From: Candidatus Gastranaerophilales bacterium
GTDB lineage: Bacteria; Cyanobacteriota; Vampirovibrionia; Gastranaerophilales; Gastranaerophilaceae
Direction: 5' to 3'
DNA: 64,000 nucleotides
NCBI GenBank assembly: GCA_944323955.1
Contig: CALUUK010000005.1
Span: forward strand, 62,001 to 126,000
Position numbers and translations under genes: made by a program. Below, piece after piece: positions 6,124-10,752 of the stretch (the first letter of the stretch is position 1; the number at the start of each line of letters is the position of its first letter). Under the pieces are notes generated by a model. It saw only the letters and a program-made list of their open reading frames with translations. It was not told the DNA's origin and ran no database searches.

Positions 6124-6423
6124 TTAATATTGTAATGGTTCATCAAATGCTGCACTAACTATAAATCCAATTGAAATAAGAAAAATCGTATAGCAAAGCA
6201 TAAGAATGTTTAAAGACAAAATAATTCTTTGAGCAATCTTGTTTTTAAATATTCTTTTTAATATATCTAAAAGAATTGAAGCAATTAACGGGGGAATAAA
6301 ATAAATGTATACACTTAGTGCTACTTTAGATGGCAAATAATATGCCATGTCAACGCGAGTTTCATTGTAAATTATATAAAAAATCGTAATAATGAAAATG
6401 ATAACCGAGAAGTTTTTATACAT
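6124..6423 (-). CDS. Array paralog 6: small three-helix membrane protein
   Basis: A 99-residue protein, last of six tandem paralogs. Layout: MYKNFSVIIFII starts helix 1 (about 5-20); a variable, partly acidic loop (21-38) follows; helix 2 is about 39-58 with the conserved PPL; then a basic loop KRIFKNKIAQR; and helix 3 is about 68-90. The basic second loop and N-terminal Lys predict N-terminus inside and the variable loop outside. It shares the C-terminal EPLQY with paralogs 1 and 3. The ribosome site GGAGGAAATAGT is strong. Family unknown; no enzyme motif. Confidence 0.85.
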   Translation of the reverse strand: MYKNFSVIIFIITIFYIIYNETRVDMAYYLPSKVALSVYIYFIPPLIASILLDILKRIFKNKIAQRIILSLNILMLCYTIFLISIGFIVSAAFDEPLQY

Positions 6424-6444
6424 ACTATTTCCTCCAAAAAGAAG

Positions 6445-6471
6445 ATGTTATAATCTTTGGTATTATAACAT
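6445..6471 (-). promoter_or_regulatory. Promoter with perfect palindrome, array gene 6
   Basis: A perfect 10-bp inverted repeat, ATGTTATAAT / ATTATAACAT around a 7-bp spacer. The minus-strand arm contains an extended -10 box (TGTTATAAT) and the other arm falls just after the predicted transcription start. This is a good geometry for an operator. Confidence 0.6.
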
Positions 6472-6478
6472 GATAATA

Positions 6479-6502
6479 AAAACCCACTTTTTAGTTGGTT
6501 TA
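6479..6502 (-). terminator. Terminator of array gene 5
   Basis: AAACCAAC / GTGGGTTT hairpin on the minus strand followed by a T-run. The same sequence recurs after array gene 2 (7729-7751). Confidence 0.55.
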
Positions 6503-6511
6503 AGATACTTG

Positions 6512-6862
6512 TTAATTCTTTATATAATCTTTATATAGTTCATCTGTCCAATCTTGATATATTGCATCTTTTGGTATGGTATCACTTGTTAAATCCATTC
6601 CAAGATATAGTGAAAGAAGAAGAATTGTATATCCGAGTGCAAGAATGTTTAAAGCCAGAATAACTCTTTGAGCAATTTTGTTTTTAAATATTCTTTTTAA
6701 TATGTCCAAAACAACAGAACATATTAATGGTGGTACAAATTCTATATAGACATTTATTGTTTCTTGTGATGGTAATTTATATACAGAATCTCCATAAAGT
6801 TCAGAAAAAATAATGTAAATTATTACAAGAATAAATATGATAACTGAGAAATTCTTATACAT
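6512..6862 (-). CDS. Array paralog 5: small three-helix membrane protein, longest form
   Basis: A 116-residue paralog with the same plan: MYKNFSVIIFIL, outside loop with Gly-Asp-Ser, helix 2 with PPLICSVVLDILK, basic loop KNKIAQR, helix 3. It differs by an extended, charged C-terminal tail (TDELYKDYIKN). The 3' end of this tail is still recognisable as decayed DNA behind paralog 2, which shows that this form is ancestral to that copy. It has a GGAG ribosome site and its own promoter and terminator. Confidence 0.83.
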   Translation of the reverse strand: MYKNFSVIIFILVIIYIIFSELYGDSVYKLPSQETINVYIEFVPPLICSVVLDILKRIFKNKIAQRVILALNILALGYTILLLSLYLGMDLTSDTIPKDAIYQDWTDELYKDYIKN

Positions 6863-6900
6863 ATTATTTATCTCCAGAAGAAATTCTTATATTCTTAGGT

Positions 6901-6910
6901 ATTATAACAT
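6901..6910 (-). promoter_or_regulatory. Extended -10 promoter, array gene 5
   Basis: Minus-strand ATGTTATAAT (extended -10) about 40 bp before the ATG, directly downstream of the previous gene's terminator. This is the B-type leader, without the full palindrome. Confidence 0.5.
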
Positions 6911-6914
6911 ATTC

Positions 6915-6944
6915 AAAACCCCCGTTATCTTGCGGAGGTTTGTT
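6915..6944 (-). terminator. Terminator of array gene 4
   Basis: Minus-strand hairpin AAACCTCCG / CGGGGGTTT (one G-U pair) immediately after the stop codon of the preceding array gene. Confidence 0.7.
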
Positions 6945-6950
6945 TCTGTC

Positions 6951-7289
6951 TTACCATTCAGCAAATGCTGACGAAACCATTGAATAGATTGTAAACCAAA
7001 ATAAAGCTGAGATTAATACTAAGATATTTAGGGCCAAAATAATCTTTTTTACAATTTTATTTTTATATATTTTACTTAATATATCTAAAAACAAAGCAAT
7101 TATGAATGGTACATATAAATGATAATAAAAATGCCATTCTTCTATAGGTGGAAAAACTCGGTTTGGTTTATAATATAACCATTCAGTTGCATATGGTGGC
7201 CAATTTGGTTCTGAATTTTGTAATGTTGTGCAATATATTACTGTAAGTGTTGCAAGAATAAACAATATAACCGAAAAATTCTTATACAT
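6951..7289 (-). CDS. Array paralog 4: divergent small membrane protein
   Basis: A 112-residue paralog and the most divergent member. It keeps MYKNFSVILFIL, the middle PFIIALFLDILSKIYKNKI and helix 3. Its outside loop is expanded to about 40 residues and is rich in Trp, Pro and Tyr (NWPPYATEWLYYKPN). Variation is again concentrated in the loop between helices 1 and 2. It has its own promoter and terminator. Function unknown. Confidence 0.82.
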   Translation of the reverse strand: MYKNFSVILFILATLTVIYCTTLQNSEPNWPPYATEWLYYKPNRVFPPIEEWHFYYHLYVPFIIALFLDILSKIYKNKIVKKIILALNILVLISALFWFTIYSMVSSAFAEW

Positions 7290-7327
7290 ATTATTTATCT
7301 CCTAAAGATGTTCTTATGTTCTTTGGT

Positions 7328-7337
7328 ATTATAACAT
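7328..7337 (-). promoter_or_regulatory. Extended -10 promoter, array gene 4
   Basis: Minus-strand ATGTTATAAT upstream of a B-type leader with a TAGGAGATAAATA ribosome site. Confidence 0.5.
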
Positions 7338-7343
7338 ATTAAA

Positions 7344-7372
7344 ATCCCCCGCTGTTTTGCGAGGGGCTTTTA
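7344..7372 (-). terminator. Terminator of array gene 3
   Basis: Minus-strand CCCCTCGC / GCGGGGG hairpin with loop AAAACA, directly after the stop codon; nearly identical to the hairpin at 8142-8171. Confidence 0.7.
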
Positions 7373-7672
7373 TTAATATTGTAATGGTTCATTAAATACA
7401 GCACTAACTATAAATCCAATTGAAATAAGAAAAATCGTATAGCAAAGCATAAGAATATTCAAAATCAAAATAATTCTTTGAGCAATTTTGTTTTTAAATA
7501 TTCTTTTTGATATATCCAAAACAACAGAACATATTAATGGTGGTACAAAGTCCATATATGAGTTTATTGCTTCTATTGATGGTAGTTTGTAATTAGAATA
7601 AAGATAGTTTTCATCATATATGATATAGATAATAGTAATAATAAAGATAATAACCGAGAAGTTTTTATACAT
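7373..7672 (-). CDS. Array paralog 3: small three-helix membrane protein
   Basis: A 99-residue paralog very close to paralogs 1 and 6 at both ends (MYKNFSVIIFIITIIYIIY ... EPLQY), but with a different loop (YLYSNYKLPSIEAINSYMDF). Helix 2 (PPLICSVVLDIS) matches paralog 5 rather than 1 and 6, a mosaic pattern that suggests recombination or gene conversion between copies. The ribosome site is GGAGGAAATAGT. Function unknown. Confidence 0.85.
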   Translation of the reverse strand: MYKNFSVIIFIITIIYIIYDENYLYSNYKLPSIEAINSYMDFVPPLICSVVLDISKRIFKNKIAQRIILILNILMLCYTIFLISIGFIVSAVFNEPLQY

Positions 7673-7693
7673 ACTATTTCCTCCAAAAAGAAG

Positions 7694-7720
7694 ATGTTAT
7701 ATTCTTTGGTATTATAACGT
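7694..7720 (-). promoter_or_regulatory. Promoter with near-palindrome, array gene 3
   Basis: A-type leader; ATGTTATATT / ATTATAACGT inverted repeat with two mismatches, carrying the -10 box TATAAT on the minus strand. Confidence 0.5.
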
Positions 7721-7728
7721 GATAATAA

Positions 7729-7751
7729 GAACCCACTTTTTAGTTGGTTTA
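7729..7751 (-). terminator. Terminator of array gene 2
   Basis: Same AAACCAAC / GTGGGTT hairpin as at 6479-6502. It lies about 60 bp after the present stop codon, with decayed coding DNA between. Confidence 0.5.
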
Positions 7752-7760
7752 AGATACTTG

Positions 7761-7813
7761 TTAATTCTTTATATAATCTTCATATAATAATATATTTTTC
7801 TGTATATATCAAT
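7761..7813 (-). pseudogene. Decayed 3' tail of array paralog 2
   Basis: The minus-strand stretch ending GATTATATAAAGAATTAA matches the last codons of paralog 5 (which encode DYIKN and stop), including the sequence after the stop. Here it lies outside the open frame, so paralog 2 lost its C-terminal extension through an earlier stop. Confidence 0.6.
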
Positions 7814-8089
7814 TTAGTAATAAAATATTAATCCGAGTAAAATGAGAAAAATAGTATAACAAAGCATAAAAATATTCAAAATCAAAATAATTCTTTGAGT
7901 AATTTTATTTTTAAATATTTTTTTTAATATATCTAAAAAAATCGAAATTATTAACGGTAAAACAAAGTACATATAGACATTTATTGATATTTGAGATGGC
8001 AGATAATATGCTTTGTCGTAATAGTTTTCTGCGTATATTATATAAATAACTGTAATGACAAAAATAATGACAGAAAAATTCTTATACAT
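7814..8089 (-). CDS. Array paralog 2: C-terminally shortened membrane protein
   Basis: A 91-residue paralog with MYKNFSVIIFVI, loop ENYYDKAYYLPSQISI, helix 2 and basic loop KNKITQR, but ending shortly after helix 3 (LLGLIFYY). Compared with the 116-residue paralog 5 it lacks the charged tail, whose DNA relic lies just downstream. All three helices are intact, so it may still be functional. Confidence 0.8.
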   Translation of the reverse strand: MYKNFSVIIFVITVIYIIYAENYYDKAYYLPSQISINVYMYFVLPLIISIFLDILKKIFKNKITQRIILILNIFMLCYTIFLILLGLIFYY

Positions 8090-8127
8090 ATTATTTATCT
8101 CCTAAAGATGTTCTTATGTTCTTTGGT

Positions 8128-8137
8128 ATTATAACAT
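8128..8137 (-). promoter_or_regulatory. Extended -10 promoter, array gene 2
   Basis: Minus-strand ATGTTATAAT followed by a B-type leader; it starts right after the terminator of array gene 1. Confidence 0.5.
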
Positions 8138-8141
8138 ATTC

Positions 8142-8171
8142 AAAACCCCCGCTGTTTTGCGAGGGGTTTTT
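8142..8171 (-). terminator. Terminator of array gene 1
   Basis: Minus-strand CCCCTCGC / GCGGGGG hairpin with flanking A/T runs directly after the stop codon. Confidence 0.7.
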
Positions 8172-8172
8172 A

Positions 8173-8472
8173 TTAATATTGTAATGGTTCATCAAATGCT
8201 GCACTAACTATAAATTCGATTGAAATAAGAAAGAATGTATAGCAAAGTGCAAGAATATTTAAAGCCAAAATAATTCTTTGAGCAATCTTGTTTTTAAATA
8301 TTCTTTTTAATATATCTAAAAGAATAGAACCCAATAATGGGGGAATAAAATTATCATAAACATCTATTGCTATTTTGGATGGTAATTTGTAATAAGAATC
8401 AACAAAAATTTCAGAATAAATGATATAAATAACCGTAATAATAAAGATAATAACCGAGAAGTTTCTATACAT
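8173..8472 (-). CDS. Array paralog 1: small three-helix membrane protein
   Basis: A 99-residue paralog and the first in transcription order. It starts MYRNFSVIIFIITVIYIIY, has loop SEIFVDSYYKLPSKIAID, helix 2 with PPLLGSILLDILK, basic loop KNKIAQR and C-terminal EPLQY. Its ATG lies 1 bp after the stop codon of the 471-residue gene. Its promoter and leader sit inside the last codons of that gene, so it may be expressed both from its own promoter and by read-through. Confidence 0.85.
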   Translation of the reverse strand: MYRNFSVIIFIITVIYIIYSEIFVDSYYKLPSKIAIDVYDNFIPPLLGSILLDILKRIFKNKIAQRIILALNILALCYTFFLISIEFIVSAAFDEPLQY

Positions 8473-8473
8473 T

Positions 8474-9889
8474 CTATTTCCTCCAAAAAGAAGATGTTAT
8501 ATTCTTTGGTATTATAACATGATAAATAATAAAGTAAGGTATAATCTGCCCTCGTTCCTGTCTTATTCGTGCCGTCCTGACTAAATCACTTAGCTCATTT
8601 GGATTAAAATCATAGGTATCAGCAATAAGCAGGTCAAGCTCGCCGTTTTTGTTTATATGCATGTCTAAAATATCCGCGTTACCCAGTGCGTATCCAAAAT
8701 TTCTATCTTTGAACTCTAGGCTGGAGTTAATGTGTATATTGTTTTTTAATACTTTCTCATTTTTATTTATTTTTTCTTTAAAAACAGAATGATTTCCGAG
8801 CACTTCGGCAAGTCTTTTTGAAGAATCAGAGTCTGCTTCAATATATATACCTTTTGTTGTTAAAAGTTTATCTTCTCCGATTTGTTCTGATATTTTCTCC
8901 CTTAAATAATCCTGCAGGTCACTATCCACTTGAAGATAATTATCAAAAATTGTATGCTGCCTTGCATAATCGGTGTTCATATAAAATCTTGCTTTAGACA
9001 TATGCAAGTTCTCTGCTGCCTCTGGACCATAATTTTTAGACGCAGTTTCTTTTATTTTTGCATTATGAATATAATCAATTGCGATATCACTACGAATGCT
9101 ATGTCTTTGGGGTTTTCGAAGGCGTCTTTTTTCATCCATATTAACCTTTTTCTTTAGAGCATTAATTTCATTTCCATATAAAGTCAAATCATATTTTTTT
9201 TGAAGAGGCATATCGGCTAAAGTACCTTGAGGAAAAAATAATTTATCGGGGTCTGAAATAGCCGGAATTGATGAAGCAGAGGGATTAGACGGGTTATATT
9301 CATAGAGTTTTTGTACGGGATGAAGGGCAAAATCCATACGATTTTGAAACTGCTGAAAATATTTTTGATAATATTCATCATCAGAGCCATATAGAACATC
9401 AGCTCTGTTTTGCATTTTATCGAAACGGTTTAAATCTTCATTAATAGCAGATTGTTTTTTCTTTTTCATTAAAGATAAATCTTGTTCGATAGATTGATGA
9501 GAGACTGCAGGCTTAACAAAATTTGAATTAATTTTTGTAAGGTTTGACGGTTGTTTATTTAAAGAATTAATCATTTTTTGATTTTGCAGCTGCTGTTGTT
9601 TTAATAACTTTCTTTGATTTTCAAGAGATTTAATTTCATTTTCTTTCTGCTGAATTTTATATTTAGTAAGGGCATAATCTTGTTTAGCCTGATTAATTTG
9701 TTCTTTATAATCAGTTGTTACATTATATTGTTCAACAGACGGCTCGTAAAACGGAATATCTGAAAACTGCGGGTATTTTTGTTTTGATTTTGAAGATGAA
9801 TCAGGCTCTTTGTAGTAAACATCTTCTCTAATACCTCCTTGTAAAACAAAATTGTCTTGATTTTGATGCTGATTTGTTTTTTTGTGCAT
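8474..9889 (-). CDS. Unknown 471-residue coiled-coil protein preceding the array
   Basis: The start at 9889 follows AAGGA; a frame 13 codons longer lacks a good ribosome site. The N-terminal third is Gln/Lys-rich, with a predicted coiled coil (KYKIQQKENEIKSLENQRKL, about 75-115). A disordered middle follows, then a more compact C-terminal domain (about 290-460) containing GNADILDMHINKNGELDLLIADTY-like sequence and RQERGQIIPYF. No signal peptide, no recognised family. The last roughly 17 codons (from YHVIIPKN to FWRK and the stop) coincide with the array promoter/leader, and the same codons reappear before array gene 3. Confidence 0.75.
   Translation of the reverse strand: MHKKTNQHQNQDNFVLQGGIREDVYYKEPDSSSKSKQKYPQFSDIPFYEPSVEQYNVTTDYKEQINQAKQDYALTKYKIQQKENEIKSLENQRKLLKQQQLQNQKMINSLNKQPSNLTKINSNFVKPAVSHQSIEQDLSLMKKKKQSAINEDLNRFDKMQNRADVLYGSDDEYYQKYFQQFQNRMDFALHPVQKLYEYNPSNPSASSIPAISDPDKLFFPQGTLADMPLQKKYDLTLYGNEINALKKKVNMDEKRRLRKPQRHSIRSDIAIDYIHNAKIKETASKNYGPEAAENLHMSKARFYMNTDYARQHTIFDNYLQVDSDLQDYLREKISEQIGEDKLLTTKGIYIEADSDSSKRLAEVLGNHSVFKEKINKNEKVLKNNIHINSSLEFKDRNFGYALGNADILDMHINKNGELDLLIADTYDFNPNELSDLVRTARIRQERGQIIPYFIIYHVIIPKNITSSFWRK
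8494..8520 (-). promoter_or_regulatory. Promoter with near-palindrome, array gene 1, inside a coding 3' end
   Basis: ATGTTATATT / ATTATAACAT inverted repeat (one mismatch) with the minus-strand extended -10 TGTTATAAT. The same bases are codons for HVIIPKN of the upstream gene. Confidence 0.5.
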
Positions 9890-10188
9890 GATACATTCCT
9901 TTCTTTGCAGTAGTAAAAGACAGAACATTTATTCTGCCCAAAGAGACATACGGCTCTTCTTATTAATAATTTTATCCGTAATTTCGTATTAAATTTACCT
10001 GTTATTGTTTTTATATTTACAATAAAATGTTTAATAAACTCTAATACAGAAGCATATTTACATTATAACATACTTTCCTGATTATGCAAGTGTGTGTAAA
10101 ATATATAACAACATATTGTACAAAAAGACATAATAAAGCCCCTAAAGCAATATTTGCATTTAGGGGTTTAAAAGAATTTTGTTTATTT
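9890..10188. other. Gene-free stretch between two minus-strand genes
   Basis: About 300 bp with the EF-hand gene's terminator at its right end (10134-10170). The rest is AT-rich, presumably holding the promoter of the 471-residue protein; I see no clear -35/-10 pair and no RNA gene. Confidence 0.5.
10134..10170 (-). terminator. Terminator of EF-hand gene
   Basis: Perfect 8-bp stem CCCCTAAA / TTTAGGGG with a 12-nt loop, 19 bp past the stop codon. Confidence 0.75.
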
Positions 10189-10752
10189 TTATGAGTTTGA
10201 ATTTCCGTTTATAGTAGGACGAACCGAGTCCAAAACGCTTGATGTATCATCTTCTACGCCGTCATTGTAATATAAACTGGTGTTTGAGGCTTTATATGAT
10301 TTGTATTTCTTTTCTACTTCGTATTGATTACAATCCATACTGAATTTTGTTATTTCATCGCTGGTTACTCTGCCGTCACCGTTTGCATCAATCTGGTTAA
10401 AATAAGTTAAAACTGTTGATAATAAAGAAGAATCTCCGCTGCCTGAAGCACATAAAGATTGAATTTCACTATAAGTTAAACCTTGTGATTGCATTGTATT
10501 CATAAGGTTTTGCAAGTCCGCTCCCGTAATCTCACCGTCGCCGTCTTTATCTACAGATGCGAAATTACTTGTTAAATATTGAACAAAGCTGTAATTACTG
10601 CCAAGATTTAGCAATTGAGAACTTGTAAGATTTGATAAATCGTCCAGAGAAATACCCTTTCCCGAAGAACTGTTGCTCATCAATGTCGAATAGGTGGAAG
10701 TTAATCCTGACATCGCACTTGCTAAAAGCGCCTGACCGTTTAATATACTCAT
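10189..10752 (-). CDS. EF-hand calcium-binding protein
   Basis: A 187-residue protein with two canonical EF-hand loops, DKDGDGEITGAD (about 68-79) and DANGDGRVTSDE (about 122-133), each flanked by helix-forming sequence. The N-terminus (MSILNGQALLASAMSGL) has no signal peptide, and the Ser/Asn-rich tail looks disordered. Ca2+ binding is expected from the loops; partner and location are unknown. It is a single-gene unit with an AAGGAG ribosome site and its own terminator. Confidence 0.85.
   Translation of the reverse strand: MSILNGQALLASAMSGLTSTYSTLMSNSSSGKGISLDDLSNLTSSQLLNLGSNYSFVQYLTSNFASVDKDGDGEITGADLQNLMNTMQSQGLTYSEIQSLCASGSGDSSLLSTVLTYFNQIDANGDGRVTSDEITKFSMDCNQYEVEKKYKSYKASNTSLYYNDGVEDDTSSVLDSVRPTINGNSNS

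Follow-up and report, generated by a model that had tools for sequence, protein, structure and literature searches.

The window analyzed here is a 64,000-nucleotide stretch of Candidatus Gastranaerophilales DNA (assembly GCA_944323955.1, contig CALUUK010000005.1, positions 62,001 to 126,000). It contains a 471-codon open reading frame, the proposed toxin gene, followed on the same minus strand by an array of six small membrane-protein genes of 91–116 codons each (6124–8472). The gap between the end of the toxin reading frame (8474) and the start of array gene 1 (8472) is 1 nt. Counted from an earlier ATG at 9928, the toxin reading frame has 484 codons. Its product comprises a variable N-terminus and a C-terminal domain (residues ~241–471), with DTYDFN at residues 424–429. 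The array genes belong to one family, with gene 1 matching the other five at 43–80% identity in a search of its own genome. The genes and flanking signals are as follows.

10062..10070, minus strand: TGTTATAAT upstream of the toxin gene, candidate toxin promoter
8474..9889, minus strand: 471-codon reading frame, proposed toxin, ATG at 9889
8173..8472, minus strand: array gene 1, 99 aa, small hydrophobic multi-TM protein, proposed cognate immunity protein
8146..8165, minus strand: intrinsic terminator after gene 1 (terminator scan), its T-tract extending into the gene 2 −10
7814..8089, minus strand: array gene 2, 91 aa
7373..7672, minus strand: array gene 3, 99 aa
7346..7365, minus strand: intrinsic terminator after gene 3 (terminator scan)
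6951..7289, minus strand: array gene 4, 112 aa
6512..6862, minus strand: array gene 5, 116 aa
6124..6423, minus strand: array gene 6, 99 aa

Hairpins resembling the terminators of genes 1 and 3 are seen by eye between the remaining units and directly adjoin the next −10. At 10189–10752, on the upstream side of the toxin gene, is a reading frame with EF-hand-like repeats (DKDGDGEITGADL, DANGDGRVTSDEI).

All six array genes are preceded by a 48–51-nt element that reads (YH)VIIPKN... to a stop codon and also contains the ribosome-binding site. Only for gene 1 is this element the true end of an open gene.

8474..8524, minus strand: toxin tail YHVIIPKNITSSFWRK and stop, also putative promoter, leader and ribosome-binding site of gene 1
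8511..8519, minus strand: extended −10 TGTTATAAT of gene 1, made by the H-V-I-I codons
8091..8138, minus strand: tail copy YVIIPKNIRTSLGDK and stop before gene 2, with TGTTATAAT at 8128–8136
7674..7724, minus strand: tail copy YHVIIPKNITSSFWRK and stop before gene 3, with CGTTATAAT
7291..7338, minus strand: tail copy before gene 4, with TGTTATAAT at 7328–7336
6864..6911, minus strand: tail copy YVIIPKNIRISSGDK and stop before gene 5, with TGTTATAAT at 6901–6909
6425..6475, minus strand: tail copy YHVIIPKIITSSFWRK and stop before gene 6, with TGTTATAAT at 6462–6470

The −10 is made by the codons CAT GTT ATA ATA CC, which encode the end of the YHVIIP strand. In each of the six leaders the distance from TATAAT to the ATG is exactly 44 nt, and in five the hexamer has the TGnTATAAT form TGTTATAAT, the gene 3 leader having CG for TG. 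The leaders of genes 1, 3, and 6 read YHVIIPK(N/I)ITSSFWRK and stop, that of gene 6 differing by one change, and those of genes 2, 4, and 5 are a sister version, YVIIPKNIR(T/I)S(L/S)GDK and stop. The first three match over 48 of 50 nt, with reading frames 80–83% identical; the gene 2 and gene 4 leaders match over 50 of 50 nt, with reading frames 61% identical. This likeness is far above chance. The identity of the gene 2 and gene 4 leaders (window positions 8090–8139 and 7290–7339) alongside 61% identical genes may reflect gene conversion or strong selection. The sequence TGTTATAATACC occurs five times in the 1.96-Mb genome, always in the array, and is lacking from the gene 3 leader. Array matches that reach back to toxin residue 427 were rejected as tail, as they cross stop codons and nothing beyond the last ~16 codons is real tail.

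A reading of this locus from its sequence alone had claimed that the 3′ end of the 471-residue gene is also the leader of gene 1, and that gene 3 is preceded by an in-frame tail into which no coding region runs. Both hold: the toxin reading frame ends in YHVIIPKNITSSFWRK at 8474, directly before the gene 1 start, and the gene 3 leader is the same 51 nt, with stop codons just upstream. The duplicated unit which that reading took to include the coding 3′ end is found before all six genes, wider than claimed, and the ribosome-binding site within the element and the terminators abutting each next −10 go beyond it. The same reading assigned a promoter to the tail, and here the bases do carry TATAAT, an extended −10 and a ribosome-binding site; promoter activity itself is a putative property.

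Homologs of the 471-residue protein are present in 49 of the 193 other genomes searched (50 of 194 with its own genome), and a profile search places the domain in 22 of 41 genomes of the genus. Named relatives are mostly Candidatus Gastranaerophilales MAGs, and the region common to homologs is mostly the C-terminal 230 residues. When the C-termini are aligned, as the sequence-only reading had proposed, the alignment of same-genus homologs reaches the tail or continues into it. Homologs are alignable through VIIPKN, after which residues differ freely. Among 29 aligned domains the Pro of IIP is conserved in at least 90%, and K92, G107, N157, D184, Y186, F188, and N189 are invariant. An AlphaFold2 model of the domain (mean pLDDT 91.1, pTM 0.85) has a final core strand, 212–220, that takes in YHVII, with VIIP at its end. 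The conserved Pro and the predicted final strand indicate that the tail belongs to the protein and predates the array. Tails from other genera retain the hydrophobic residues and the Pro with other codons, and 16 of 17 have no TATAAT, from which it follows that the coding strand arose before the −10 box. The membrane gene is on the opposite strand in nine of these 17 tails, a natural control in which a −10 would be useless, but the same-strand cases mostly lack TATAAT too (6/7).

These comparisons bear on the converse history, in which the leader is the older part and became joined to a gene whose reading frame had formerly stopped earlier. The leader is indeed more conserved than the array reading frames, and residues after VIIPKN vary freely between homologs. 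Retention of strand and Pro in other genera with different codons and almost always without TATAAT, the often convergent membrane gene there, and the position of the strand within the predicted fold all speak against a fusion, which the homologs largely refute, and we regard it as very improbable. A coding-first origin of the tail is supported by sequence and model, and with it the earlier suggestion that the promoter came from coding DNA. In four sister-genus loci (L081, L082, L084, L085) the membrane gene is convergent and ends at or within the toxin stop codon. The immunity gene is likewise convergent in pore-forming colicin operons.

Codon choice in the strand was examined in 61 tails, drawn by a loose-cut-off HMM from the loci analyzed, which represent part of all homolog hits; repeats within a genome are included, and window leaders 2–6 stand outside this set. 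Exact TATAAT is found at V-I-I in 20 of 31 in-genus tails (those with at least 80 open residues upstream). Among short orphan tails 11 of 13 have it, and among tails of other genera 1 of 17. The exact hexamer is missing from 11 of the 31 in-genus tails, and of the 23 in-genus tails that precede a membrane gene, 4 contain neither TATAAT nor TAAAAT. When synonymous codons are shuffled inside each gene according to that gene's own usage, the mean is 4.0/31 and the maximum 10 in 5000 draws vs the 20 observed; after clustering at 60% identity, 12 of 22 tails have TATAAT, vs a mean of 2.4 and a maximum of 8. In a column-wise codon test over 99 columns (18 of 20 in-genus rows, two near-duplicates having been dropped), excess codon identity, a measure of synonymous constraint, ranks I459 first, I460 fourth, and V458 eighth, and the neighboring columns I455 and P461 show no excess. 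One homolog (L064) has H-I in place of H-V, and its codons still yield TATAAT. Judged from these sequences, the V-I-I codons are locked inside the genus, the −10 bases being constrained in their own right.

The hexamer might instead be a by-product of AT-rich codons in a tail kept only by its protein sequence and recent recombination. Codon counts do show the genes to be AT-rich, and some loci are nearly identical, such that the tails are not all independent. The shuffles nevertheless fall well short of the observed count, I455 and P461 vary freely, and scraps of ~16 codons persist before orphan genes, where no protein needs them. We consider a codon by-product quite unlikely.

A sigma-70 −35/−10 scan picked up none of the six leader TATAATs, which have no −35 partner. 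Upstream of genes in these loci TATAAT shows no sense-strand excess (67 sense, 62 antisense), and this precluded a calibration of the usual promoter in these genomes; TGNTATAAT occurs there 16 times in sense and 11 in antisense. Elsewhere in the genus, 30 TGTTATAATACC hits, part of all hits, comprise 11 toxin tails or scraps, 18 unrelated sites, and one unclear case. By sequence criteria five of the six leaders do have an extended −10 of the form TGnTATAAT, plausibly spaced from the start codon, and we infer that the tail −10 may be an active promoter.

A multi-TM reading frame, as counted by a simple hydropathy scan, immediately follows the tail on the same strand in 23 of the 31 in-genus cases; it is on the opposite strand in two, none is found in four, and in two the contig ends. 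One locus scored as having none (L054) has two 3-TM reading frames ~300–700 nt further on. The membrane-gene reading frame sometimes overlaps the toxin stop codon, and TATAAT or TAAAAT was found before its ATG in 26 of 37 cases, at a distance of 36–72 nt. The promoter-like tail is not peculiar to this array and accompanies most single toxin/membrane-gene pairs of the genus, a result outside the scope of the sequence-only reading.

Orphan tails of varied lengths precede membrane genes in other genomes. Nine of the 13 have a membrane gene directly downstream, and all nine have TATAAT. Three genomes in which the profile search finds no toxin-domain match (G017, G020, G036) have, behind the tail YNVIIPKNVKIGTKVK and its stop codon, a gene related to array gene 1. 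Many genomes are fragmented MAGs whose contigs often end near these loci, so the absence of the toxin from these three is less than certain. In comparison with the toxin-bearing genome G035, homology extends at least about 360 nt rightwards and ends leftwards exactly at TATAATGTTATAAT, the 5′ edge of TATAAT, in two different surroundings, one of them shared by G017 and G020. The retained scrap would be just what an expression unit needs.

Such an edge could also be a recombination or cassette site, its promoter-like appearance being secondary. Coincidence of the left boundaries at TATAATGTTATAAT in two separate surroundings would suit this, as would identical leaders before differing reading frames in genes 2 and 4. 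The right boundaries differ, however, at about 360 to 680 nt, and a fixed two-ended cassette was rejected on this ground. Other orphan tails extend further, with 27 to 95 residues before the Pro, and the left end is therefore not fixed either. A cassette site is very unlikely to be the main explanation.

Taking together the copied tails, their descent from coding sequence, the constraint on synonymous codons at the −10, the neighboring membrane genes, and the orphans cut at the promoter edge, we think it likely that these are toxin and immunity genes in which the immunity promoter resides in the last codons of the toxin gene, and that the tail travels with orphan immunity genes. The product of the upstream gene would be an antibacterial toxin, and each of the six array genes would specify a small membrane protein conferring immunity. 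YHVIIP, the final β-strand of the toxin, would double as the extended −10 box TGTTATAAT, and from 44 nt before the immunity start (36–72 nt in relatives) would allow immunity to be transcribed without the toxin. Where an immunity gene is duplicated or moved without the toxin, selection would keep the end of the toxin gene before each copy as promoter, leader, and ribosome-binding site, giving separate promoter–gene–terminator units. That array genes are probably immunity genes, and that tail scraps precede orphan copies elsewhere, had no place in the sequence-only reading.

The 29 N-termini are, by eye, of several kinds and are joined to a shared C-terminal domain, with a putative immunity gene directly downstream, as in polymorphic toxins; six copies behind one toxin, with toxin-less copies in the three genomes above, correspond to an orphan immunity array. 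The pair might otherwise serve prophage exclusion or another membrane function, and some homologs do lie beside phage structural genes (head–tail adaptor and major head genes in L067). Variable N-termini with a shared C-terminal domain, diverse adjoining membrane proteins, orphan arrays, and a possibly colicin M-like fold are better suited to toxin and immunity, and the window copy is located near ribosomal protein genes, not phage genes. An exclusion or other membrane role is unlikely.

The C-terminal domain is not named by any Pfam, NCBIfam, PHROGs, or PDB-sequence match; Pfam has no name for the membrane genes, and Pfam Colicin_M is not among the hmmscan hits for the domain. A PF14859 search of the window's own genome returned nothing, but its controls were empty too. 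Among solved structures, Foldseek ranks pectocin M2 highest (E 0.016). VIA-align has 11 colicin M-family entries (Z 6.3–4.1) and the T6SS effector BtpeA (Z 4.5) in its top 12 rows; the top alignment covers 139 residues at 4.4 Å and the next unrelated row has Z 3.8, and all Z scores are below 8, values that according to the tool may mean only a common arrangement. The viral Foldseek library gives nothing below E 0.001, viral contigs contain no relative of the query, and a literature search for BtpeA found no paper mentioning it. In the text excerpted from PMC8469651, the colicin M active-site sequence begins DKYDFN and the motif is DxYD(x5)HR. Across the 29 sequences, D184 and Y186 of the DxYD part are invariant, D187 is conserved in at least 90%, and an invariant FN follows; the HR is not conserved at the corresponding columns. 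Immunity to Pseudomonas colicin M-type toxins is a four-helix membrane protein (PMC5821083, excerpted text). The likeness to colicin M consists of the best structural matches, the DxYDFN core, and an adjoining integral-membrane protein of putative immunity function, comparable to the PmiA-type immunity proteins in these excerpts, whereas the HR, any sequence-level match, the bacterial group, and the N-termini set the domain apart. In the structural comparisons this unnamed family comes nearest to the colicin M-type toxins. That the system functions as colicin M toxins and their membrane immunity proteins do seems reasonably probable, with a colicin M-like attack on lipid II as the supposed action, and we do not file it as a member of that family. 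No colicin M-like toxin of Gastranaerophilales was described in the literature searches made.

In nuclease colicin operons a constitutive immunity promoter lies inside the colicin gene; we know of no array of tail scraps for these operons. Closer precedents come from the V. cholerae T6SS, where promoters inside effector genes drive tsiV1–3, that in vasX within the last 253 bp (PMC3857813). As described in the excerpt of that paper, the immunity promoter likewise lies towards the 3′ end of the effector gene, acts independently of how the effector itself is controlled, and is shown by reporters rather than placed at particular codons. Here, in contrast, the putative −10 is in the last β-strand, conserved across many homologs, and appears to travel with orphans. 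Both CDI and T6SS offer examples of orphan toxin/immunity modules and of immunity arrays (PMC3150448, PMC5361080). In the excerpted accounts of cdiA-CT/cdiI orphans and V. cholerae arrays, immunity arrays also occur without full toxins, some with toxin fragments, but the fragments include the toxin domain or the arrays are displaced modules. The scrap described here is ~50 nt, just what expression needs, and the window copies look tandem-duplicated. Among the open-licence PMC papers that the searches listed, none, judged by title and the start of the abstract, places a promoter in conserved toxin codons or describes orphan genes that carry one as a scrap. Effector genes with internal promoters and arrays of orphan immunity genes are already known, and the portable strand that is also a putative −10 box is a new form of them.

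A broader account, which we favor by a small margin over doubt, is that in one gut Gastranaerophilales genus selection for an immunity promoter fixed the codons of a toxin strand and so made a portable promoter cassette; orphan genes would have spread with the scrap only, into genomes that have lost the toxin or never contained it, and the toxin would represent a new, distant colicin M-like family. Such an arrangement would be a sequence-level answer to making immunity without toxin, and would explain toxin-gene scraps before orphan immunity genes as their promoters. As the promoter can be removed by synonymous changes with the protein unchanged, a clean test is possible. The tail also provides a DNA mark for finding orphan immunity genes.

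Several further features of these loci deserve mention. An HPRD..GKFT tag, e.g., HPRDDEGKFTYKNGG, occurs on the N-termini of L053, L055, L057, L060, L079, L128, and L129; the tagged reading frames of L128 and L129 have other C-termini, and the tag may be a shared packaging or delivery signal. In L067 the toxin or tail and the membrane gene sit just before the phage genes, identified in this locus by PHROGs matches; L064, L065, L068, L069, and L077 have a similar setting by eye. A stretch whose translation includes AGCGFYVRV, possibly a repeat element at the junction, is found upstream of the orphan gene in L071 and L072 and downstream of a copy in L048. In L061, five tandem membrane genes follow one toxin, mostly with 10–30-nt gaps that leave no room for tail scraps, and this array was made in another way than that of the window.
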